DNA of 11,307 nucleotides from an uncultured Lachnospiraceae bacterium. GTDB taxonomy: Bacteria; Bacillota; Clostridia; Lachnospirales; Lachnospiraceae. Under the pieces are notes generated by a model. The model saw nothing but the letters and a program-made list of their open reading frames with translations. It did not search any database and was not told the DNA's origin. Within the stretch, counting starts at the first letter, position 1, and every line of letters begins with the position of its first letter. The DNA lies in assembly GCA_902783735.1 (NCBI GenBank), contig CACZSE010000056.1, forward strand, positions 1 to 11,307, read 5' to 3'. A program made the translations under genes and the position numbers. Of the stretch, positions 1 through 11,307 are shown piece after piece.

Positions 1-1653
1 CCCTATGTTACTGAAAGAGACAGTAATGATGCACTTAACAGTATCTTTATTACGGGGCCCAAATGCACAGGAAAGCACTATGCTCTTTCGTGTATTGCGG
101 ATGAGCTTTGCAAAAGACATATTCTTGCCGTAAGCGATATATATACCATTGACCTTTCGCTTTATCCCACAGCTGCGGAGGATAAGCTGTTTTTACAGGA
201 TCTTTATTCCGCACTTCAGAGTAAGGCTTCGGTACTTGCTTTTGAAAACTATGAAAACTGTCATGTTTCGATGCTTACAAGACTCAGTGATCTTGTGACT
301 ACCGGAGAGTGCAGGCTTTCCGAGAGATATATCATGCAAAAAGGCCAGCTTGTCAGTGTGAGCAACGCTTTGGCGGGCGAGACGGTTGGTTCTTTGGAAG
401 CCGCAGGCAAATACTTTGTTTTCATAGGAAGAAACGGGTTGGATAAGCTTGCGGGAGTGATGGGAGCACCGTTTGTAAATGCTTTGGGTGATGTTTGTGA
501 AACAGCAGCACTGAATGAGGAAGCACTTAAAAAGATATCTAAGGATCAGGAAGAGATCCTCATTGAAAAATGTAAAAAACAGCTTTTGTTTGATATTACG
601 ATCGACGACAGCTTCAGAGAATTTATCATAGGACAGTCCTCTAAGAACAGAGGCTTGCAGGGGATACTGGATACATATAATGACATTTTGAAAGCCCTGG
701 CACAGTTTAAACTTGAGAGTGATGAAGCTAAAAGCGCTATCACTCTTACCTGTGAGGAAGGAAGGATCGTCTTTGCTTCTGACAAAGAAAAGCTCCCGAT
801 GAGTGATTTTGTTCAGACAGGCTACAGCGGCGAGGTGGAAGCGGTTGAGAGTGAGCTTGAAAATATTGTGGGACTGGATATGGTCAAGGATTATATCCGC
901 AGTCTCAAGGAATATTATGCAATGCAGAAACGCCGCCGTGAAGAAGGACTTAAGGCAGGCGAGCTCAATAAGCACATGATCTTTACGGGAAATCCCGGTA
1001 CCGGTAAGACTACCATTGCACGTATAGTAAGTAAGTATCTTAAAGCTATAGGAGTTTTGTCGGGCGGACAGCTGGTGGAAGTATCCAGAGGTGACCTTGT
1101 GGGAAGATATGCCGGCCATACGGCGCCCCTTGTAAATCAGGTGGTAAAGTCTGCGCTTGGCGGTGTTTTGTTCATAGATGAGGCTTACAGCCTGTACAGA
1201 GGAGAAGATGACAGCTTCGGTCTTGAGGCGATAGATACTCTGGTTAAATGTATAGAAGATAACAGAGATAATCTGATCGTTATCCTGGCGGGTTATTCAA
1301 AGGAGATGGAAGATTTCCTTGAATCGAATTCGGGACTTAAGAGCCGTTTCCCCAATATTATAGATTTCCCCGATTATACGGGAGAAGAGCTGGTTTCAAT
1401 AGCAAAGATAACCGCAAAGTCCAAAGGATATGTTTTGGATGATGAAGTCCTTGCACCTTTACAGTCTTATTTTGAAGTGATCCAGGCCACAAATGCCCGT
1501 GAAGCAGGAAATGGACGTCTTGTAAGAAATAAGGTGGAAGAAGCTATTTTAAATCAGTCAAAGAGGCTTGTGGCTGAGCAAAACGAAGATATGTCATTGC
1601 TTAAACTGATGGATTTTGATATTGATCGGGAAAGCGACAGTGAAGAGAATTGA
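1..1653 (+). CDS. AAA+ protein: degenerate ClpB-D2-like module plus intact CbxX-type AAA+ module (5' partial)
   Basis: The frame is open from base 1 to the TGA at 1651-1653, so the start lies upstream; the ATG at 271 is internal. The first module follows the layout of a ClpB/ClpA second AAA domain: a Walker A-like GPKCTGKH (55-78), a Walker B-like VLAFENYENCH (232-264), an FVNALGDV segment (472-495) where ClpB has its arginine finger (FLNRID), and a ClpB-like small domain up to about 780. The second module is a canonical CbxX/SpoVK-type AAA+ ATPase: Walker A GNPGTGKT (988-1011), pore-loop-like RYAGHTAP after it, Walker B VLFIDEA (1165-1185), sensor-1 region near 1270-1293 and the arginine-finger motif GLKSRF (1333-1350). 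The protein is probably a cytosolic remodelling ATPase in which only the C-terminal module hydrolyses ATP. Its substrate is unknown. It is probably co-transcribed with the lipoprotein gene that follows 13 bases later. Confidence 0.9.
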   Translation, partial: PYVTERDSNDALNSIFITGPKCTGKHYALSCIADELCKRHILAVSDIYTIDLSLYPTAAEDKLFLQDLYSALQSKASVLAFENYENCHVSMLTRLSDLVTTGECRLSERYIMQKGQLVSVSNALAGETVGSLEAAGKYFVFIGRNGLDKLAGVMGAPFVNALGDVCETAALNEEALKKISKDQEEILIEKCKKQLLFDITIDDSFREFIIGQSSKNRGLQGILDTYNDILKALAQFKLESDEAKSAITLTCEEGRIVFASDKEKLPMSDFVQTGYSGEVEAVESELENIVGLDMVKDYIRSLKEYYAMQKRRREEGLKAGELNKHMIFTGNPGTGKTTIARIVSKYLKAIGVLSGGQLVEVSRGDLVGRYAGHTAPLVNQVVKSALGGVLFIDEAYSLYRGEDDSFGLEAIDTLVKCIEDNRDNLIVILAGYSKEMEDFLESNSGLKSRFPNIIDFPDYTGEELVSIAKITAKSKGYVLDDEVLAPLQSYFEVIQATNAREAGNGRLVRNKVEEAILNQSKRLVAEQNEDMSLLKLMDFDIDRESDSEEN

Positions 1654-1666: not shown

Positions 1667-4600
1667 TTGAAAAGAAGATATAGAATTTTAAAATATCTGA
1701 TTCCGGTCATTTCTTTGATGCTCTTTTTAACTTCATGCACGAAAAAAGAACAAGAGGAAGTTGTGACGGAAGAACCGGTCATAGAGCAGATCGATATTCA
1801 AACAGAGCAGGATGAGAGTCCTGCTCTGCTTGTAATTGAAAAGATCACATCCATGCCCGATGCGCAGTGGATGGTGGATGATACGTTTCCGGGAAGAAAT
1901 GACAATGTGAGCACAACCCTTGCCATGAACAGTATGGACAGTTTCAAATATTACAGCGGACAGGGACATATGTACATCTCGGTCGGCGAGGATATAACAG
2001 GATTTAAGCTGTATATAAATGAGAAGGAAGCTGATACATCTGCCATAGAACCGGGTGGTATATATGATGTTGATCTTTCGGATATAGCATTAAGAGGCAT
2101 GAATACATTTCAGATATCATCTGTTTTGCCTTATGATGCCGAGACCAAAGTGAGGGTATGCATACCGTATCCTGAGATAGTGAATGCTACACCAAAGGAA
2201 GCAGGCATAAATGCAGATACTTTGTCACTTATCGAAGATATTGTTAAAACGGACATAGAATACGGATTTACAAGTGCTCAGATGGCAGTGATCAGGGATG
2301 GGAAACTCATATATGAAAATGCGTGGGGCAAGGTAAATTCCTATCTGCCCGATGGTTCACGAAACACTGCTTCCCCCGATGTGACAACGGACACCTTATA
2401 TGATCTTGCTTCCGTCACAAAGATGTTTTCGACAAATTATGCTGTCCAAAAGCTGGTCACGGACGGAGAACTTGATCTTGACAGCAGGATAACAGAATAT
2501 CTTGGCGAGGGATTTGTTACTGAAACTCTCGATGTAAGGATAGATAAATATGAGAGGTTTGATCCCGATACACAAAAAAGATGGAAATCTAAACTGACTG
2601 TCAGGGATATTTTAAAGCATCAGGCAGGCTTTGCTCCTTCCGTAGGATATTGTAAGCCTGAAAAGAAGGAACTGTTTTCCGGTAATGACAGTTCCGAAGA
2701 AACAAAACAGGCTACACTTTTGTCCATTTGTAAGACACCGCTTGTCTATGAGCCGGGAACGCAGACGATGTACTCGGATCTGGATTTCATGATATTGGGG
2801 TTTATAGTTGAAAACATAACAGGAAAGGACCTCGATACATATCTTAAGGATACATTTGCAGGTCCCATGGGGCTCTCGCATATGACTTACAGACCTCTTG
2901 ATAACGGCTATTCAAGAGATGACTGTGCAGCCACCGAATTAAACGGCAATACCAGGGATGGTACCATTTTCTTTGACGGTATCAGGACTGACACCATACA
3001 GGGTGAAGTTCACGATGAGCTGGCATATTACAGCATGGCAGGAATATCGGGACATGCAGGACTGTTTTCGAACGCAACTGATCTTGCAAAGCTTGCCTCA
3101 GTTATGTTAACCGGAGGCTACGGTACAAACAGATATTTTTCCGATGATGTCATGGATATGTTTACGGCTCCGAAGAGTGAGAAAGATCCCAATTGGGGAC
3201 TCGGCTGGTGGCGTGAAGCCGATCACATGAGAACATGGTATTTCGGTACTCAGTCGTCATCCCGTTCCTTCGGACACCAGGGATGGACGGGGACACTGGT
3301 CATAATAGACCCTGAAAGGGATCTTGTCATAGCCTATTTGACCAACAAAGTCAATTCACCCCTTATAAACCCTAAGAAAAACCCGAATTCGTTTGCGGGC
3401 AGTTCGTATACTTCATCGACACTGGGATTTACCTCACAGATATTATCCATAGGTATGGACAGCGATGAGGATATCACCGGACAGCTCATGAGTCTTCTGG
3501 AATCCATGGTCTGTGACAGTTTTAAACTGGTCGACCAAAGCGTTATGAACGATGAGTCGGATCCGCGTGTCAGAAATGTTTTAAGTAAGCTTGCTGTTTA
3601 CAAAAAGAGAGCAGAAGCCCTGTCCGATGAAAGTTATATCGAAAAGTCCGGCGAACTCTGTAACAGATGGGAACAGATTAAGAAAGAACAGGCTGTGGAA
3701 AATGAAGAGGAGGAGCCTGAATCCGAAGAAGTGATATTGGGTGATGAGAGGTTTGATGAATACCTTCCGTTACTTGAAGGAAAGAAGGTTGCACTTTTTA
3801 CCAATCACACCGGTATTGTGGGAGACGATCTGAATAAGAACGAGCATATACTGGATGCCCTTATAGACAGAAATATAAATGTTACCGCAGTTTTCAGTCC
3901 TGAGCATGGTTTCAGGGGTGATGCGGATGCGGGAGCTTCAATAAGCGATTCAACAGATGAAAAGACAGGGACTCCTATACTTTCATTATATGACGGTAAG
4001 TCGCACTATCCTTCAAAAGAGAGTTTGGAAAAGTTTGATACGCTGGTCGTGGATATGCAGGATGTGGGGCTGAGATATTATACATATTATATTTCACTCT
4101 GGTACCTTATGGATGCTTGTGCTGAGCATGATAAGAATGTCATCATTTTGGACAGACCTAATCCAAACGGATTCTATGTCGACGGTCCCGTATTAAAGAG
4201 CGGTTTTGAATCAAATGTGGGAAGATTACCCATCCCGGTGGTACATGGCATGACATGGGGAGAACTGGCTCGCATGATAAATGGCGAAGGCTGGTTAAAT
4301 GCCGGAAAAGATGCCTGCGATCTGACTGTTGTGGGATGCAAGAATTACAGTCATGATATCAAAACCGAAATTGTGATAGATCCTTCGCCGAACATAAAAG
4401 ATATGAGAGCGGTTTATCTTTATGCTTCCACCTGCTTTTTTGAAAATACTGCAGTTTCCGTGGGACGAGGCACCGACTATCCCTTTGAGATATACGGAAG
4501 TCCTTATCTTGAAAATTCGGGGTCCTTTGATTTTTCATTTACCCCCCAAAGCATGAGCGGGGCAACCGATCCGCCGTTTAAAGGACAGGTCTGCTACGGA

Positions 4601-4882
4601 AGAGATTTAAGAGATATTCCTCTTGAGGACATTACGCAAGCGGGGATAGATCTGCAATATCTTATCGATGCATATAACGGCATAAAACAAGCCAATCCCG
4701 ATATAGATTTCTTTGGAACACCCGATAAGAACGGCCATTATTGGATCGATTATCTTATGGGAACCGATGAAGTCAGAAAACTGATAGAGCAGGGAAAAAG
4801 CGCAGAGGAGATAAAAGCATATTGGCAGGATGATGTGGACCGGTTTTGCATTGAACGAAAACAGTACCTTTTGTATGACTGA
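1667..4882 (+). CDS. Lipoprotein fusing a PBP4B/YfeW/AmiE-type serine hydrolase to a NamZ-type (DUF1343, GH171) exo-N-acetylmuramidase
   Basis: Numbering is from the proposed TTG start (1071 residues). Residues 1-24 are a type II signal peptide: basic KRR, a hydrophobic core and lipobox LTSC with Cys24, so the protein should be anchored outside the membrane. Residues about 45-170 look like a beta-rich domain of unknown role. Residues about 175-640 are a class C beta-lactamase-fold hydrolase with S249-V-T-K252, Y369-S-D and H537-Q-G. Stretches such as AATELNGNTRD, SGHAGLFSN and GWTGT resemble E. coli YfeW (PBP4B). A glutamate-rich linker (about 677-690) leads to a NamZ domain (about 692-1071) with SPEHGFRG around E746, DMQDVG from D796, DRPNPNG from D829, and SVGRGT. 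In B. subtilis the AmiE amidase strips peptide from MurNAc and NamZ releases non-reducing-end MurNAc. This protein probably does both to cell-wall fragments, but its bond specificity is inferred. A weaker alternative for the first half is an esterase or DD-peptidase. Confidence 0.88.
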   Translation: MKRRYRILKYLIPVISLMLFLTSCTKKEQEEVVTEEPVIEQIDIQTEQDESPALLVIEKITSMPDAQWMVDDTFPGRNDNVSTTLAMNSMDSFKYYSGQGHMYISVGEDITGFKLYINEKEADTSAIEPGGIYDVDLSDIALRGMNTFQISSVLPYDAETKVRVCIPYPEIVNATPKEAGINADTLSLIEDIVKTDIEYGFTSAQMAVIRDGKLIYENAWGKVNSYLPDGSRNTASPDVTTDTLYDLASVTKMFSTNYAVQKLVTDGELDLDSRITEYLGEGFVTETLDVRIDKYERFDPDTQKRWKSKLTVRDILKHQAGFAPSVGYCKPEKKELFSGNDSSEETKQATLLSICKTPLVYEPGTQTMYSDLDFMILGFIVENITGKDLDTYLKDTFAGPMGLSHMTYRPLDNGYSRDDCAATELNGNTRDGTIFFDGIRTDTIQGEVHDELAYYSMAGISGHAGLFSNATDLAKLASVMLTGGYGTNRYFSDDVMDMFTAPKSEKDPNWGLGWWREADHMRTWYFGTQSSSRSFGHQGWTGTLVIIDPERDLVIAYLTNKVNSPLINPKKNPNSFAGSSYTSSTLGFTSQILSIGMDSDEDITGQLMSLLESMVCDSFKLVDQSVMNDESDPRVRNVLSKLAVYKKRAEALSDESYIEKSGELCNRWEQIKKEQAVENEEEEPESEEVILGDERFDEYLPLLEGKKVALFTNHTGIVGDDLNKNEHILDALIDRNINVTAVFSPEHGFRGDADAGASISDSTDEKTGTPILSLYDGKSHYPSKESLEKFDTLVVDMQDVGLRYYTYYISLWYLMDACAEHDKNVIILDRPNPNGFYVDGPVLKSGFESNVGRLPIPVVHGMTWGELARMINGEGWLNAGKDACDLTVVGCKNYSHDIKTEIVIDPSPNIKDMRAVYLYASTCFFENTAVSVGRGTDYPFEIYGSPYLENSGSFDFSFTPQSMSGATDPPFKGQVCYGRDLRDIPLEDITQAGIDLQYLIDAYNGIKQANPDIDFFGTPDKNGHYWIDYLMGTDEVRKLIEQGKSAEEIKAYWQDDVDRFCIERKQYLLYD

Positions 4883-4954: not shown

Positions 4955-5923
4955 TTATTTTATGACTGATATGCTTTCCCTGTCTGCAAATATCGCTACA
5001 AAGATCAAAAATACGATTCCCTGTATCAGCTGCATGGCCTGGGTTGTCAGTCCCATCATGATAAGCCCGTTTGTAAGAACTACATATAAAAGAGAACCTA
5101 CGATCACATTTTCAAATCTTACTTTTGCACCGCCGGATATCGGCATTCCTCCAAGGACAAGTGCGATGAGGATCTGGGTTTCAAGCTGGTTGCCGACATT
5201 TGCCGTTGCGGAGCCGTTTTTAACAATATTCACAAAAGCCGCAAGACCTGTTATGGCACCGGAAAGAACATAGATCAGAAATTTAACTCTGTCGGTCCTT
5301 ACGCCCGCAAATTTAACCGCTTTTTCACCTGCACCGATGGCTTTTAAATTTATCCCAAATCCGGTGAAGCGAAATACTATAAAGCTTATGATCAGAACAA
5401 CGGCTGTGATACTTAGTTTGATGGCCGTTGTATCGTAGTCGTATACCTTCATGCTTGCGGCAACCGGAGAATTGGATGCCATGTATTTTATAAATCCTCT
5501 GAACAGAAACATCGTACATATGGTTACTATAAATGATTTGATCTTTCTGTTTACGTAGAAATATCCGTTAAAAGCACCGATAAGTGCACCGGCTGCTATT
5601 CCGCCGATCACAGCCAACAGCATATTTTTACCCGAAAGCAGACATACCACTATCGATGCTATGCCGAGTATGGAGCCCTGAGAGAAATCAAGACCTCCCA
5701 TCGACATGATGAAGAAAACTCCCGTAGCGGATATAAGTACTACATATACCTGATTCATGATCAGCTTACGGCTGTTCCACATGCTGCCTTTGGTAATGAT
5801 GTTAAAGACTATGCACATCGCTATAAGTCCGATGAATGGAAGAGATGAGCGGATCATGTTTATGACTGACTGTTTTTTTAAGGCACCCACAACCTGTGCC
5901 TGAGTTATATCTTTGCTATCCAT
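4955..5923 (-). CDS. ABC sugar transporter permease, RbsC/BPD_transp_2 family (permease 2)
   Basis: This is an integral membrane subunit of a ribose/galactose-class importer, about 322 residues, the usual length for the family. It has many hydrophobic segments. Family hallmarks are the MGGLDFSQGSILGIAS stretch near residue 75, NGYFYVNRKIKSFIVT near 120, the cytoplasmic coupling region AIGAGEKAVKFAGVRTDRVK near 200, and LVLGGMPISGGAKV in the C-terminal part. Two in-frame ATGs lie two codons apart, at 5929 and 5923. The Shine-Dalgarno at 5931-5936 is one base from the first and seven from the second, so 5923 is chosen. It is the last gene of the minus-strand transporter operon, 12 bases after the ATPase stop. 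Because a second, different permease is encoded upstream, the channel is probably a heterodimer. The substrate is not evident from the sequence. Confidence 0.93.
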   Translation of the reverse strand: MDSKDITQAQVVGALKKQSVINMIRSSLPFIGLIAMCIVFNIITKGSMWNSRKLIMNQVYVVLISATGVFFIMSMGGLDFSQGSILGIASIVVCLLSGKNMLLAVIGGIAAGALIGAFNGYFYVNRKIKSFIVTICTMFLFRGFIKYMASNSPVAASMKVYDYDTTAIKLSITAVVLIISFIVFRFTGFGINLKAIGAGEKAVKFAGVRTDRVKFLIYVLSGAITGLAAFVNIVKNGSATANVGNQLETQILIALVLGGMPISGGAKVRFENVIVGSLLYVVLTNGLIMMGLTTQAMQLIQGIVFLIFVAIFADRESISVIK

Positions 5924-5930
5924 GACCATC

Positions 5931-5938
5931 CCTCCTTA
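5931..5938 (-). promoter_or_regulatory. Fused stop codon and Shine-Dalgarno (TAAGGAGG) for permease 2
   Basis: On the minus strand the ATPase stop TAA (5938-5936) runs straight into GGAGG (5935-5931). A ribosome terminating on the ATPase message therefore sits on the initiation signal of the permease, which suggests reinitiation or coupling. The spacing of seven bases selects the ATG at 5923. Confidence 0.75.
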
Positions 5939-7435
5939 TACCATCTTTGAGATGAGACTGTTCTCATCCATATCTTTACTTCGTTTAAGTTCTCCATTGA
6001 TCTTACCGTCCTTCATGATGATTATCCTGTCACACATTCCAATCAGTTCCATAAGCTCTTCGGAGATCATGACGATCGATTTACCGGATTTTCGCATGCT
6101 GTCCATAAGCTGATATATATCCTGTTTAACCTTAATGTCTATTCCTCTTGTGGGACTGTCAAGTAAGAGGATATCGGAATCCTTGCCTATCCAGCGGGCA
6201 AGAACCACCTTTTGCTTGTTTCCTCCCGAGAGATTTGAAACAAACTGGTTAACACTCTGCATTTTTGTGGACATCTGTTTTGCGTATTTTTCGGCAAAGT
6301 CTTTAAGCTTCTTGTCACTCAAGAGGTGAGCTTTGTTGGAAAGCTCATCCAGTGACGGGAGACATATGTTATCTCGTATGCTCTGGTTCATTACAAGAGA
6401 TTCATTATCTCTGTCCTTCGAGGTATAGGCTATACTGTGTGAGATGGCAGTGGGTATATCATTTATTTTTGTTCCGTCAGCAAGAGTCACACTGCCTTCT
6501 CTGTCATATGATGCACCGAAGCATGCTTTACCGATCTCATGCATACCGGACTCGGACAGACCGCCAAAACCCAATATCTCACCTTTATGAAGTTCGAAAC
6601 TTACATGGGATATGAGACCGGGAACGGATACGTCCTCTACCTTCATGACCACTTCATCGGATACTTCCTCATCATAATCCGCACGGTAATATTTTCCCGT
6701 GACTTCCCTGCCTACCATCAGCTTTTTGAGTCCGTCTTCATCGATGTCGGCACTTTTTATGGTATCTATATATACACCGTCTCTCAAAACCGTAATGGTA
6801 TCTGACATCTTAAGCACTTCGGGAAGATCGTGTGAAATGAATATGACCGTATTTCCCTTTTCTCTGATCTTATACATCTGTTTATAGAGTTCTTCTCTGC
6901 CTTCTCTTGACAGGGCAGTGGTAGTCTCATCTATGACCACTATCTTTGGATCAAAGTAAGTAGCCTTTACTATCTCAACAAGCTTTCTGTCTTCGAAATT
7001 ATAATTCTCTATCATGTCGGAAGGCTTGATGCGGTCAAAACCGTATTCGGCCAGAAGTTCACCTGCTTTTCTGTTCATCGCAGATGTGTTTTTGATACCC
7101 ATTTTTACGAATCTGTCTTCATGGCCGAGAAAGATATTTTCAGCAACGGTAAGTCCGTCTAAAGTGCCGAGCTCCTGAACTATTATGGAGATACCTTCAT
7201 TGTTGGCTTCTACCTGGTTAACGGGATGAACCTCTTTTCCGTCAAGGATGAAGGTACCGTCGTCCTTCTGATAGATCCCGGCAAGTGAATTGGTCAGAGT
7301 TGATTTTCCCGAACCGTTCTCACCTATAAGGGCATGTATTTCACCTTTGTTTATATTGAAAGATACACTCTGCAAGGCTTTGGTTATACCGAAGTTCTTG
7401 CTGACATCTTTTATTTCCAATCTTATGTCACTCAT
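5936..7435 (-). CDS. Double-domain sugar ABC transporter ATPase, RbsA/MglA family, with one degenerate ATP site
   Basis: This 499-residue protein carries two nucleotide-binding domains, as is usual for RbsA/MglA ATPases that energise ribose/galactose-class importers. NBD1 has Walker A GENGSGKS (38-45), Q87, Walker B VVIDE (D169, E170) and H202. Its signature region reads NYNFEDRKLVEI (about 144-155) instead of an LSxGxxQ-type motif. NBD2 has a good signature LSGGNKQK (402-409). Its Walker A region reads GGLSESGMHE (291-300), without the GK(S/T) of an active P-loop. Its Walker B is LLLDSP, with Ser427 where the catalytic glutamate belongs. One composite site (NBD1 Walker motifs with NBD2 signature) therefore looks active and the other inactive. 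A weak second site is typical of RbsA proteins, but it is eroded further here. The start ATG has AAGGAGG eight bases upstream. Confidence 0.95.
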   Translation of the reverse strand: MSDIRLEIKDVSKNFGITKALQSVSFNINKGEIHALIGENGSGKSTLTNSLAGIYQKDDGTFILDGKEVHPVNQVEANNEGISIIVQELGTLDGLTVAENIFLGHEDRFVKMGIKNTSAMNRKAGELLAEYGFDRIKPSDMIENYNFEDRKLVEIVKATYFDPKIVVIDETTTALSREGREELYKQMYKIREKGNTVIFISHDLPEVLKMSDTITVLRDGVYIDTIKSADIDEDGLKKLMVGREVTGKYYRADYDEEVSDEVVMKVEDVSVPGLISHVSFELHKGEILGFGGLSESGMHEIGKACFGASYDREGSVTLADGTKINDIPTAISHSIAYTSKDRDNESLVMNQSIRDNICLPSLDELSNKAHLLSDKKLKDFAEKYAKQMSTKMQSVNQFVSNLSGGNKQKVVLARWIGKDSDILLLDSPTRGIDIKVKQDIYQLMDSMRKSGKSIVMISEELMELIGMCDRIIIMKDGKINGELKRSKDMDENSLISKMV

Positions 7436-7443
7436 TTGCTTCC

Positions 7444-7451
7444 CCTCCTTA
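7444..7451 (-). promoter_or_regulatory. Fused stop codon and Shine-Dalgarno (TAAGGAGG) for the ATPase gene
   Basis: The stop TAA of permease 1 (7451-7449) is contiguous with GGAGG, followed by GGAAGCAA and the ATPase ATG at 7435. The arrangement repeats the one at 5931-5938 and points to coupled translation of permease 1 and the ATPase. Confidence 0.75.
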
Positions 7452-8414
7452 CTTTACGATCTCACCCTTGGCTACTTTGGTTGTCAGCATAACTATTATG
7501 AGAAGAGCAAATCCTGTTATGACATCCTGGATGGCAGTGGGAGCTCCCAAAGCGATAAAGCCGAAGAAGATGATATTTATAACAAATTCTCCGATTATGA
7601 TAGCCGGTATCGGCATACCGTATTTTTTGAAAGCAAGACCGAAAAAGCATCCCATGGTCGGAACGAAGTTTCGTGTCATGGATGCCATACCGGTAACAGC
7701 GACCATGGATGAACCGTAACTTATCGTGAGAACGGCCATGATCCCAAGGAAGGCTCCGCTTATTATGAAAGCTAAGATCTTATATTTATTAACCTTTATG
7801 CCCATATTCTTTGCAACGAATTCGTTGCTTCCTATTGCATAGGTATAAGTACCGATCTTTGTATAGTTGAGTAAAAGATAAGCAATGGCAAAAGCAATGA
7901 CTGCCAGGATGATATTTCCGGGCATCTGACCGAAAGCGCGAAGGCCTGAGGGGAGCGTCTGTTCCACGCCACCTGCGATATAATTTGCTATGGATTCATA
8001 GATCAGAGCAAGGCCCGTTGTTACTATCATTGAGGGAATACGTAACTTAATATAGAACATTCCGTTAAGCATACCGACGATGGCACCTGTCAATATGGCA
8101 CCTGCTATGAGTCCTAAGTATCCGAGACCGAAGCGATTCGCAAAGACACAGCCCACGATGGCGGACAGCATTATATTGGCACCAATGGAAAAGTCAAACA
8201 TTCCCATTACCATTACGAAATAAAAACCTACGGCACCGACTGCGGCCAGCAGCGATGCTTCAAAATAGCTCAGCATGTTTTTGGCTGAACCGAAATTATC
8301 GGGGGTTATCAGCTTGAATATACCCCACGAGATGAAAACCATTATAAGGAGCAGCAGGTATCCTTTGAACTGACCTGACAGCCTTTTTGCGGTTGTTTCA
8401 GTTGACTCATTCAT
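7449..8414 (-). CDS. ABC sugar transporter permease, RbsC/BPD_transp_2 family (permease 1)
   Basis: This is a 321-residue polytopic membrane subunit of the same importer. After a short polar N-terminus, hydrophobic segments run along its length. Family marks are MGMFDFSIGANIMLSA near residue 70, NGMFYIKLRIPSMIVTTG near 115, the coupling region AIGSNEFVAKNMGIKVNKYK near 195, and GCFFGLAFKKYGMPIPA near 255. It is clearly diverged from permease 2, so the importer should use a heterodimeric channel. The ATG at 8414 has GAGGT (8427-8423) eight bases upstream. The gene follows the binding-protein gene across a 90-bp gap containing a stem-loop, and its stop codon is part of the Shine-Dalgarno of the ATPase gene. 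The transported compound is unknown. Confidence 0.93.
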   Translation of the reverse strand: MNESTETTAKRLSGQFKGYLLLLIMVFISWGIFKLITPDNFGSAKNMLSYFEASLLAAVGAVGFYFVMVMGMFDFSIGANIMLSAIVGCVFANRFGLGYLGLIAGAILTGAIVGMLNGMFYIKLRIPSMIVTTGLALIYESIANYIAGGVEQTLPSGLRAFGQMPGNIILAVIAFAIAYLLLNYTKIGTYTYAIGSNEFVAKNMGIKVNKYKILAFIISGAFLGIMAVLTISYGSSMVAVTGMASMTRNFVPTMGCFFGLAFKKYGMPIPAIIIGEFVINIIFFGFIALGAPTAIQDVITGFALLIIVMLTTKVAKGEIVK

Positions 8415-8457
8415 ACCGATTTACCTCATTTAAACCAAAAAAATTAGGATTTTTTGC

Positions 8458-8492
8458 AATAAACAGGCCGGTACCGTGTTGCGATACCGGCC
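8458..8492 (-). terminator. Intercistronic stem-loop (partial terminator or mRNA stabiliser) after the binding-protein gene
   Basis: GGCCGGTA (8466-8473) and TACCGGCC (8485-8492) form a perfect 8-bp GC-rich stem. Past one C-A mismatch, CG/CG extends it to a TGTTG loop. In the minus-strand transcript it is followed by TGTTTATT, an imperfect U-tract. It sits 12 bases after the binding-protein stop and before permease 1. The likely role is partial termination or 3'-end protection, giving more binding protein than membrane subunits. Confidence 0.65.
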
Positions 8493-8504
8493 CTTATATC
8501 TTGA

Positions 8505-9716
8505 TTATTTACCTGATCTTGATGCCGCATCTTCAATGGAAAGTGCTGCTGCTTTTGCCTTAAGACCTTCCATGTCAAGCTTTGACATCTCTTTGAGTTC
8601 ATCGGATGTATAAGGAAGCTGATCTACGAAATACTTCTCATAATCCTTATAATCTTCGGGTGATGCTACATAGAGGTAAGGGAATTTGATATCTTCGAAC
8701 TTACCGCCGAAATCTGAGTAGTTACCCTGGATCGCATTGTATACTGCCATGAAAGCGAAGAGAGGATCACAGTAGTGTCCGCCTGATTCGCCGGCCATGG
8801 AACCGTTTGCGAGTCTTTCACCGAGGTCGGGTAAAAAGTCTGTAGAGACTATATCGATGTCAGCAGTCTTTCCTGCACGTTCTACAGCTGCTATAGCGCC
8901 CTGAAGAGGATCGCCGCCGCCACCTGCGGGAATGAGAGCATCGAGATCGGGATTGGCACTCATAAGAGCTTCAGCTGCCTTTGAACCACCTTCCGAAGAT
9001 GTTCCTGCATACTGGGGCTCAGATAAAACTGCCTGATCATCGGGATGAGCTGCGTTCCACTTTTCAACGCCTGCCTTGTAACCTTCCCATCTGCCAAGCC
9101 ATGTTGCATCGCCCTGTTCCCAGCCTATAAGACCGATATTTCTGTCGCCCTTGTCAAGAAGGATCTGTACGAGCTTCTCGCCGTTTTCGGGCTCATTTTC
9201 ATGAACTGCTGCTACATAATACTCAGAATCAACGGCTGCCTGATAGATATCTGCGCTTGTTTCCTGGTTTATGATACGGAAGAACTGAGCAAGATAAACT
9301 CCGTTATCATTACAGGTCTTTATAGCTGAAGCCATCTCTGTATCTGAAGAGTTACAGATTATGATACCCTGACATCCGGCTGCACATAACTGCTCTACAG
9401 ATGCCGTAACCTTTTCCGATACATGTCCCTGGTCAACATATTGAACCTGAACACCGAGAGCAGCCGCAGCCTCATCAAGTATCATCTTGCATTGTGAACC
9501 GAGTACATCCGTTGAACTCCAGATGGAAACACCGATCTTTATATCGCCGTTTGCAGCGGGAGCGGGTGCATCGGGAACCTTTTCCTCAGATATTTTTGCC
9601 ACTGTGTCCGAAGTCGCAGATGATCCCGTGGGAGCTGAAGCGGTATTACCGCAACCTACCAGTGATGTCCCAACCATCAACAAACTGAGCATCATACTTA
9701 ACAGTTTCTTTTTCAT
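8505..9716 (-). CDS. Lipoprotein sugar-binding protein of the ABC importer (Peripla_BP_4/RbsB type)
   Basis: This 403-residue extracellular solute-binding lipoprotein captures the ligand and delivers it to the two permeases. Residues 1-22 are a type II signal peptide, with KKK, a hydrophobic core and lipobox LVGC (Cys22). A Ser/Thr/Ala/Pro-rich tether to about residue 58 follows. The mature domain starts with DIKIGVSIWSSTDVLG, the first strand of a type I periplasmic-binding fold, and continues with QLCAAGCQGIIICNSSD, GDRNIGLIGWEQGDATWLGR, ALIPAGGGGDP and DIDIVSTDF, the usual order for the ribose/galactose class. Several tryptophan, acidic and glycine residues around 200-215 could line a sugar pocket, but the ligand cannot be named. 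Six cysteines occur besides the lipobox one. The ATG at 9716 has a near-perfect AAGGAGGT upstream (9734-9727). It is the first gene of the transporter block, behind its own leader with a stem-loop. Confidence 0.93.
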   Translation of the reverse strand: MKKKLLSMMLSLLMVGTSLVGCGNTASAPTGSSATSDTVAKISEEKVPDAPAPAANGDIKIGVSIWSSTDVLGSQCKMILDEAAAALGVQVQYVDQGHVSEKVTASVEQLCAAGCQGIIICNSSDTEMASAIKTCNDNGVYLAQFFRIINQETSADIYQAAVDSEYYVAAVHENEPENGEKLVQILLDKGDRNIGLIGWEQGDATWLGRWEGYKAGVEKWNAAHPDDQAVLSEPQYAGTSSEGGSKAAEALMSANPDLDALIPAGGGGDPLQGAIAAVERAGKTADIDIVSTDFLPDLGERLANGSMAGESGGHYCDPLFAFMAVYNAIQGNYSDFGGKFEDIKFPYLYVASPEDYKDYEKYFVDQLPYTSDELKEMSKLDMEGLKAKAAALSIEDAASRSGK

Positions 9717-9942: not shown

Positions 9943-10665
9943 TCAGATCTCCTTGCGATATTTGCTGGGAGATATCCCTTCGACCTTTTTGAACACTTTT
10001 GTGAAATAGAAGTAGTCATTATATCCGACGATCTCGGCGATCTCCTGAATGGAAATGCTTTCATCCCTTAAGAGCTCTTTGGCACGCTGGATCCTTAAAG
10101 AAGCTATATAGTCGGAAAAATTAACCTGAAGGCGATCCTTTATCATCTTGCTAAGATGTCCCATGCTGATATTGTACTTGGAGGCAAGAGATGTTAAGGA
10201 TATATCTTCGGTATAGTGTTCACGTATATCCGAGATCACATTATCGATCATTTTGTCATAGGAGGGCATAGAGACACCGTCGTCAGGTCTGTCCTTAGTG
10301 TCATTTAAAATGGCTGTCATTACTCTTAACAGATCTTCCTCTTTTATTGGCTTTAAAAGATAGTCATATGCATGATATTTAACGGCTTCCTTGGCATATG
10401 AAAATTCCGCGAAGCCTGTTATTATCACAACCTTGGTATCCGGAGATACTTCGGGTATGACCTTTAAGAGATCAAGTCCCGAGATACCCGGCATCCTGAT
10501 ATCGGTGAATACGACATCGGGCTTGAACATCTCTATTTCCTCTTTGGCTGTCAGACCGTTGTTTGCTATTCCCATTACCCAGGAGTCGATCTCTATTTTA
10601 TCCAGCAGTTTTTTTAAACCCAAAGTGACCCATACTTCGTCATCGGCTATATAAACATTTAACAT
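9943..10665 (-). CDS. Response regulator with AraC-type DNA-binding domain (YesN class)
   Basis: This 240-residue cytosolic transcription regulator is complete. Its receiver domain (about 1-120) has every expected residue: acidic pair D8-D9, phosphoacceptor D55 in FTDIRMPG, T83 and K105 followed by proline. The output domain (about 140-240) has two helix-turn-helix units of the AraC/XylS family: SLTSLASKYNISMGHLSKMI, and the family signature from IQEIAEIVGYNDYFYFTKVF to ISPSKYR. It is shorter than many YesN proteins because there is almost no linker between the domains. The ATG at 10665 has a CGGGGGT-type ribosome site eight bases upstream. The gene lies 38 bases after the histidine kinase and just ahead of the importer operon, so it is the probable activator of the binding-protein promoter. 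Confidence 0.95.
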   Translation of the reverse strand: MLNVYIADDEVWVTLGLKKLLDKIEIDSWVMGIANNGLTAKEEIEMFKPDVVFTDIRMPGISGLDLLKVIPEVSPDTKVVIITGFAEFSYAKEAVKYHAYDYLLKPIKEEDLLRVMTAILNDTKDRPDDGVSMPSYDKMIDNVISDIREHYTEDISLTSLASKYNISMGHLSKMIKDRLQVNFSDYIASLRIQRAKELLRDESISIQEIAEIVGYNDYFYFTKVFKKVEGISPSKYRKEI

Positions 10666-10703
10666 TTCTGATACCCCCGTTACTTCACTAAATACCTTAC
10701 TTT

Positions 10704-11307
10704 TTACGGTTCTCTCATGTGATCGGGCAATGAGAGCCTTATTATCGTGCCCTCATCCACAACACTGTCTATTTCAAAAGAATAGTCATCGTTATAGAAC
10801 AGACGCAACCGTTGAACTATGTTTGAAAGACCTATGCCGCCGTTTTCGTGAGGATTGATGATCTGGTCTCTTAAACCGGACAGCGTATCTTCGTCCATTC
10901 CGCATCCGTCATCCTCTATCGTTATATTCAGGCGTTCACCCGCATTTTCAATCCGTACACAGACCGAGCCGGGCCCCATTTTACGCTCCAGACCGTGAAA
11001 TACGGAATTCTCGACAAGTGGCTGTAAGAAGAAACGTATCATGGGTTTGTCGAGAACATCTTCATCGACATCGGTAGCGATCTTTATCTTGCCCATGAAA
11101 CGGTATTCTATGATACGTGCATATTTTGCAATATATGAGACTTCGTCCCTGACGGTAACGATATTGCTTGCTTTTACGGCATATCTGAATATATCCGACA
11201 AAGACATTGCCATTTCGGCGATATCGTCCTGGTCATTGATAAGAGCCATATCTCTCATGCAGGAGAGGGTATTATACAGAAAATGGGGATTGATCTGGTT
11301 ACGATAG
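10704..11307 (-). CDS. Sensor histidine kinase, LytS/YesM class (5' partial)
   Basis: The reading frame stays open to the right window edge. Upstream of the ATG at 11258 it still encodes YRNQINPHFLYNTLS, the phosphoacceptor motif of the His_kinase (PF06580) family, with the histidine codon at 11285-11283. The ATG at 11258 is therefore internal, and the sensor and membrane part lie outside the window. The ATPase domain is complete: N-box PLVENSVFHGL (Asn codon at 11009-11007), G1 box DDGCGMD (near 10914-10894) and G2 box NGGIGLSNIVQRL (near 10844-10806). Kinases of this class normally have N-terminal transmembrane helices and an extracellular or HAMP region. It should phosphorylate the response regulator encoded 38 bases downstream. 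In this genome class such pairs control adjacent sugar ABC importers, which matches the neighbours. Confidence 0.95.
   Translation of the reverse strand, partial: YRNQINPHFLYNTLSCMRDMALINDQDDIAEMAMSLSDIFRYAVKASNIVTVRDEVSYIAKYARIIEYRFMGKIKIATDVDEDVLDKPMIRFFLQPLVENSVFHGLERKMGPGSVCVRIENAGERLNITIEDDGCGMDEDTLSGLRDQIINPHENGGIGLSNIVQRLRLFYNDDYSFEIDSVVDEGTIIRLSLPDHMREP

Follow-up and report, generated by a model that had tools for sequence, protein, structure and literature searches.

An uncultured Lachnospiraceae bacterium carries, on contig CACZSE010000056.1 (11,307 nucleotides; hereafter the window, meaning the whole stretch of DNA that was analysed), a single gene that joins a PBP4B/AmiE-type serine hydrolase to a NamZ-type exo-muramidase behind a predicted lipoprotein signal peptide. 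We think it rather probable that the product is a membrane-anchored peptide remover and exo-muramidase, which would trim peptidoglycan chain ends together with a separate, likewise anchored NagZ-type enzyme. An earlier interpretation made from the letters of the window (the sequence-only reading) had proposed such a single-frame fusion lipoprotein, and the open frame, Pfam and NCBIfam matches and orthologues in related genomes all uphold it.

The frame is uninterrupted by stop codons and comprises 1071 codons from the TTG at 1667; GTG 1640 and TTG 1616 are also in frame, so that the start codon is ambiguous, and the database cluster holding the window's own protein (P0002) is 1080 amino acids long, matching the GTG 1640 start. 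The source metagenome-assembled genome (MAG; G000) consists of 349 contigs, is 77% complete and 2.25% contaminated, and the window is one entire contig of it, all of which would suit an artefact of assembly or sequencing in which two genes were joined, or contamination of the MAG by a foreign contig. However, the fusion was present in three of the 20 genomes searched of the genus, G000 itself, G255 and G258; the orthologues in the latter two (loci L043 and L044) have an unbroken frame of 1074 amino acids with 64–65% identity to the window protein, and the same upstream AAA ATPase gene (85% identity) directly precedes them. No break was found at 3690–3740, where the sequence-only reading had allowed for a sequencing error, and both same-genus genomes read continuously through that region. 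Because the orthologues share both the frame and the upstream neighbour, frame joining was rejected and an artefact is very unlikely as the source of the fusion; the 37 other fused proteins among the relatives listed (see below), of which P0004 is that of L043, argue the same way. P0004, named Lachnospiraceae in the database, is contained within that same-genus protein, in agreement with a Lachnospiraceae host. Between L043 and L044 the ratio of non-synonymous to synonymous substitution (dN/dS) lay at 0.06–0.10 in all four regions compared; in the comparison with the window, where synonymous sites are near saturation, it was 0.09–0.12 in the two catalytic halves and 0.22–0.26, where computable, in the N-terminal domain.

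The coordinates of all features are given in the table. The first half matched Pfam Beta-lactamase (amino acids 191–565, E 1.2e-54, over cut-off) and the NCBIfam PBP4B model NF002968 (amino acids 165–588; 422 bits against a cut-off of 385). The DUF1343 match anticipated for the C-terminal third was obtained as NamZ_N (amino acids 708–913, E 7.6e-71; 238.1 bits against a cut-off of 26.9) and NamZ_C (amino acids 917–1070, E 3e-31; 109.7 bits against 25), and a fold search of the structure model gave this half the fold of solved DUF1343 proteins, a family for which we assume GH171 to be the CAZy label. The motifs SVTK (249), YSD (369), HQG (537), SPEHG (744), DMQDVG (796), DRPNPNG (829) and GRGT (933) all lie where the sequence-only reading had placed them. 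S249, K252, Y369, H537 and E746, the last being the conserved Glu of PEHG which we take to be the catalytic residue of NamZ, are invariant in 15 aligned sequences of the same domain order. PEHG is present in 37 of the 38 fused proteins listed, window included; with fixed flanks, SxxK was counted in 31 of these, HxG in 31, DxQDxG in 33, DRPxPNG in 36 and GRGT in 34, and looser patterns, some of them very loose, found SxxK, HxG and DxQD in all 37 fused relatives, PEHG in 36 and DR-P in 35.

The lipobox also stood: the signal peptide carries the motif LTSC, whose Cys is Cys24 and the predicted processing site, the Cys24 column is at least 90% conserved in the alignment of same-order sequences, and with a loose pattern 32 of the 37 fused relatives show a lipobox-like Cys among their first 45 residues. 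The structure model places after it an all-strand domain, probably a beta-sandwich, that precedes PBP4B in 32 of the 37, including all 17 with reversed order. It had no Pfam match, even at E 10, and the fold searches, which used the whole model, were filled by the two enzyme domains. The Glu-rich linker reported between the halves corresponds to an acidic linker with model confidence (pLDDT) below 50 at amino acids 680–686, a weak joint that is probably flexible; the catalytic domains are mostly at pLDDT 80–98.

Table. Features of the window and of the fusion gene (aa, amino acids).
Feature	Position	Strand	Basis
SpoVK/CbbX-like AAA ATPase, cut at window start	1..1653	+	Pfam/NCBIfam; conserved in three genomes
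PBP4B/AmiE-NamZ fusion lipoprotein gene	1667..4882	+	Open frame, Pfam/NCBIfam, orthologues L043 and L044
Signal peptide with lipobox LTSC, Cys24	1667..1738	+	Sequence; alignment
N-terminal all-strand domain, aa about 53-166	1823..2164	+	Structure model, blocks pLDDT 64-95
PBP4B/AmiE-type serine hydrolase half, aa 166-600	2162..3466	+	Pfam, NCBIfam
S249-V-T-K252 motif	2411..2422	+	Motif search, alignment
Y369-S-D motif	2771..2779	+	Motif search, alignment
H537-Q-G motif	3275..3283	+	Motif search, alignment
Helical segment after hydrolase, aa 603-680	3473..3706	+	Structure model
Acidic linker, aa 675-689	3689..3733	+	Sequence; structure model
NamZ exo-muramidase half, aa 690-1071	3734..4879	+	Pfam, tree, fold; branch of BF0379 (PDB 4jja)
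SPEHG motif (744) with E746	3896..3910	+	Motif search, alignment
DMQDVG motif (796)	4052..4069	+	Motif search
DRPNPNG motif (829)	4151..4171	+	Motif search
GRGT motif (933)	4463..4474	+	Motif search
Ribose/monosaccharide-type ABC importer: two permeases, double ATPase, binding protein	4955-9716	-	
Response regulator with AraC-type domain and sensor histidine kinase (His_kinase, HATPase_c; cut by window end)	9943-11306	-	

How often the two halves are joined, a question raised by the sequence-only reading, has a two-sided answer: the fusion is recurrent but patchily distributed. The best 120 of 2185 matches in a large protein search comprised the window's own cluster and 119 others, and both halves were present in 37 of those 119; 16 had the order of the window, 17 the reverse (including proteins named Treponema sp. 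and Treponemataceae) and four a NagZ-type GH3 domain in between. In these triple fusions the order Beta-lactamase, Glyco_hydro_3, NamZ was seen by Pfam scan (P0007 and P0009) or by BLAST (P0008 and P0011), and KHFPGHGDTxTDSH and an ITD motif, presumably with catalytic roles in the GH3 domain, are retained in each of the four. Five proteins from Lachnospiraceae MAGs named 'penicillin binding protein PBP4B' (P0004, P0005, P0008, P0015 and P0016) have the architecture of the window protein or a longer one, the database name covering the first half only. By contrast with this recurrence, NamZ was over cut-off in 11 of 397 genomes of a family sample, with a frame of fusion length only in the window's own, and a full-length search of 250 family genomes, scoring at most three candidates per genome, found both halves in one frame only there. 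Reversal of the order likely happened repeatedly: a fewest-change count required two changes, and the starred branches force two in one NamZ tree and only one in the PBP4B tree and in the NamZ tree containing 4jja.

Other arrangements were seen among the listed relatives. P0012 has, at residues about 570–1000 where triple fusions carry GH3, some 430 residues of unassigned kind, in which a GH3 remnant was sought with no convincing match; P0107 combines two Beta-lactamase stretches and GH3 in one protein, and many PBP4B relatives are joined to SLH (PF00395) or FIVAR (PF07554) domains (e.g. P0020 and P0047).

A separate fusion was found in a sample of the phylum, in which NamZ occurred in 85 of 398 genomes. 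The one-contig genome G575 encodes an 811-amino-acid frame (L160 430–2865) with Beta-lactamase at 61–400, NamZ_N at 450–652 and NamZ_C at 656–808; like the window protein it has Beta-lactamase and then NamZ in one frame, but its NamZ comes from the side of the tree that holds the operon NamZ and BF0371, its hydrolase falls below the PBP4B cut-off (220 bits against 385), and it adjoins murQ, with a MurQ over cut-off encoded 36 bases upstream on the same strand. Because both G575 halves (L087) sit away from the window's group in the trees, the pair has been joined at least twice, once beside murQ, and since this fusion adjoins murQ the case for a common pathway is strengthened. Other long NamZ frames of the phylum sample (those of 600–640 amino acids aside) were not fusions: a 717-amino-acid frame in G575 and a 773-amino-acid frame in G456 hold NamZ only, and the 940-amino-acid frame of G613 has its PBP4B-like match on the opposite strand.

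The double name PBP4B/AmiE proved apt. At locus L083 the gene order is MurQ (443 bits against a cut-off of 302), MurR/RpiR-like regulator, phosphotransferase system (PTS) IIBC, PBP4B/AmiE, GH3 and NamZ, the regulator, PTS IIBC and GH3 resembling their models while staying below NCBIfam cut-offs. The hydrolase scores 737 bits on NF002968 and is identical to the window half at 176 of 423 aligned positions (42%), such that this model puts 'PBP4B' and 'AmiE' in a single family. Among 40 NamZ neighbourhoods, eight contained a PBP4B-like gene (tblastn), 11 a GH3 and six both; seven of the eight PBP4B-like genes were 29–34% identical, one of these (L085) being below the PBP4B cut-off.

Of the salvage genes for which the sequence-only reading wanted a search elsewhere in the genome, a NagZ-type gene was located but no murQ. 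The own genome encodes a NagZ-type GH3 of 516 amino acids (G000:C263) with KHFPGQGGADADTH; read by eye, the part ahead of the domain shows a hydrophobic segment close to the N-terminus and a run rich in Glu, and the best GH3 matches in G255 and G258 score alike. The following sequence of events can be proposed. The fusion lipoprotein would be anchored by Cys24 to the outside of the cell membrane, a surface location predicted from its signal peptide; the PBP4B/AmiE-type half, as a putative amidase rather than DD-carboxypeptidase, would remove the stem peptide from a terminal N-acetylmuramic acid (MurNAc); the NamZ-type half would next cleave the peptide-free sugar, presumed to be MurNAc, from the adjoining N-acetylglucosamine (GlcNAc); and the separate membrane-anchored NagZ-type GH3 would take off the exposed GlcNAc, resetting the cycle. 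Both halves would share a substrate, and if AmiE and NamZ act successively on the same terminal MurNAc there is reason to fuse them. The link of the two halves to one pathway, which had been offered as inference, is now backed by the triple GH3 fusions, the reversed fusions, G575, L083 and the NagZ-type GH3 of the own genome; that the fusion recurs, with its domains in differing orders and with NamZ from two branches, independently supports sequential action on one substrate.

Several observations weigh against this proposal, and some of them lend themselves to other explanations. The first half may be a DD-carboxypeptidase or other peptide trimmer and the fusion may remodel the cell's own wall instead of releasing nutrients: NCBIfam names this half PBP4B, the E. 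coli PBP4B is listed among DD-carboxypeptidases and endopeptidases (PMC4916385) and is tied by title to a DD-carboxypeptidase paper, many of the listed PBP4B relatives bear SLH or FIVAR domains in place of NamZ, and the fusion-bearing genomes G000 (77% complete), G255 (95%) and G258 (96%) yielded no MurQ over cut-off. The name, however, cannot separate the activities, as NF002968 also scores the hydrolase of the murQ-to-namZ locus L083, and the gene of E. coli PBP4B is itself part of the murQ operon, consistent with the position of yfeW beside murQ–murP given in the sequence-only reading; we regard wall remodelling as rather unlikely. It is also conceivable that both halves are active on different substrates or at different times and merely share a secretion and anchoring signal: the linker is of low model confidence, the model's pTM of 0.65 does not establish the relative placing of the domains, both orders occur, hence no fixed geometry is needed, and unfused NamZ of the same branch is abundant (120 of 120 listed, after a length filter that excluded fused proteins). 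Against this, the pair is found joined in either order, accompanied in four proteins by a third pathway enzyme, and again in a separate NamZ branch (G575), and we find it improbable that the fusion serves only to share an anchor.

Further points count against sequential chain-end trimming. The gene lies outside any mur or nag cluster (in the window and at locus L157) and was found in three of the 20 genomes of the genus; NagZ-type GH3 matches above 250 bits, found in eight of nine genus genomes searched, just three of them with the fusion, are not tied to it; and a nagA over cut-off occurs in G255 and G258 and not in G000. Operon NamZ (L083) and BF0371 belong to a different branch from the NamZ half. 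Lastly, B. subtilis AmiE and NagZ were excluded from a hydrolase study as inactive on intact peptidoglycan, and because of this the substrate of the proposed trimming is more likely to be peptidoglycan fragments or prepared ends than intact wall.

Salvage of MurNAc by this cell, as the sequence-only reading had envisaged, was not borne out given the lack of a MurQ over cut-off in all three fusion genomes; MurNAc catabolism by MurQ was accordingly set aside as a candidate, and use of MurNAc by the known MurQ route is not supported. Within the genus, one of 20 genomes had a MurQ over cut-off, and that one lacks the fusion; weak matches to the MurQ model in 18 of the 20, the own genome included (26–39 bits, frames of 535–693 amino acids), presumably reflect resemblance to the SIS domain of GlmS. 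Use of GlcNAc is possible in G255 and G258 because of their nagA. In the phylum sample, 40 of the 85 genomes with NamZ also had a MurQ over cut-off and 45 had none, while among the 313 genomes without NamZ the count was 47 (Fisher p 4e-9, uncorrected for kinship). MurQ and NamZ lay within 10 kb in 22 genomes, a count that leaves aside NamZ places in MurQ-less genomes and a few others; the pairs of G589 and G423 are on separate contigs.

In the NamZ tree containing 4jja the NamZ half groups with that structure, BF0379, with 4k05 and L083 opposite (branch SH-aLRT 100, length 1.28), and because it falls in the BF0379 branch and not the operon branch, substrate preference cannot be carried over. 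All the trees came from quick searches without bootstrap and with midpoint rooting. Near copies (P0005, P0006, P0074 and P0099–P0101) were omitted, as was L043 from the PBP4B tree, which included about one in three unfused PBP4B; the 4jja-containing NamZ tree omitted 19 of the 40 neighbourhood NamZ and included 30 of 120 unfused NamZ. L087 (G575), truly fused, carried an unfused/noNamZ label, so that fusion-label counts are off by one row. A deep clade of 20 NamZ genes (L090, L095–L101, L103–L106, L108–L112 and L114–L116), mostly in open frames of 520–560 amino acids, stands apart; no PBP4B or GH3 match was found in the surrounding stretches taken and no MurQ over cut-off in the host genomes, and the clade is possibly a separate NamZ subfamily.

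Upstream, the AAA ATPase gene ends 13 bases before TTG 1667; at L157 it is 687 amino acids in full, and in L043 and L044 its end overlaps the first start of the fusion frame. Downstream, the sugar ABC importer is convergent with the fusion, and its binding protein has a lipoprotein-like N-terminus. It was considered for MurNAc/GlcNAc uptake and rejected, being convergent and replaced by an ABC exporter at L043, L044 and L157. An ABC exporter common to Butyrivibrio NamZ loci was likewise set aside as generic (28–33% identity). The response regulator and histidine kinase possibly regulate the adjoining importer. Locus L001 holds, at 7869–9317, a Butyrivibrio NamZ that is unfused, shares the branch of the window half and has a lipobox-like LGAC in its N-terminal part; it lies between an RsmF-type methyltransferase on one side and two ABC_membrane transporters on the other.

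Fusions of this type are not entirely new: a 2008 survey of serine proteases has a table row, marked 'Cell wall biosynthesis', for the DDPept-DUF1343 protein YP_439122.1, and also lists GH3-DDPept proteins (PMC2605481). A protein uniting these two Pfam families has thus been in print since then, as a single row on which the section on family architectures is silent; the text consulted names neither a NamZ activity nor a pathway. No AmiE-NamZ or AmiE-NagZ-NamZ fusion described by function was found in the available parts of the literature, including PMC10936207, PMC12735725, PMC10465942 and PMC10653849; the founding NamZ and the NamZ1/NamZ2 papers may mention one. The present analysis adds the PBP4B/AmiE plus NamZ identity, the forms with reversed order or with three enzymes, the separate murQ-adjacent fusion, the NamZ branch and the undetected MurQ.

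More tentatively, such proteins may act as exo-lytic machines on a single chain, trimming fragments of peptidoglycan from free ends, either with AmiE and NamZ anchored and NagZ beside them or with all three fused. Were this so, MurQ-less fusion cells would profit from GlcNAc and peptides, and MurNAc would be left to neighbours or imported by an unknown route; the question raised is the fate of MurNAc in a cell without detectable MurQ. The fusions also offer natural single-chain constructs on which hand-over at peptidoglycan ends could be studied, and draw attention to the BF0379 branch, whose Bacteroides fragilis member (PDB 4jja) is, unlike the window protein, unfused.

The closest known system is that of B. 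subtilis, where the cluster order murQ-murR-murP-amiE-nagZ-ybbC (PMC5061867) accords with the description in the sequence-only reading of AmiE and NamZ as separate enzymes of one cluster with NagZ. NagZ and AmiE were shown there to degrade muropeptides sequentially outside the cell (PMC5061867); NamZ-type exo-muramidases release MurNAc from non-reducing ends according to a review, and B. subtilis without NamZ or NagZ sheds peptidoglycan fragments. Its AmiE, NagZ and YbbC/NamZ belong to the same enzyme families as the window fusion and the separate NagZ-type GH3, and the AmiE-NagZ-NamZ gene order recurs at L083 and inside the triple fusions, such that recurrent fusions back a pathway that was worked out there on individual enzymes. 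The B. subtilis enzymes, however, come from separate genes beside murQ, whereas the window has two of the enzymes in one lipoprotein away from any mur cluster, in genomes with no murQ detected and with a NamZ of another branch.

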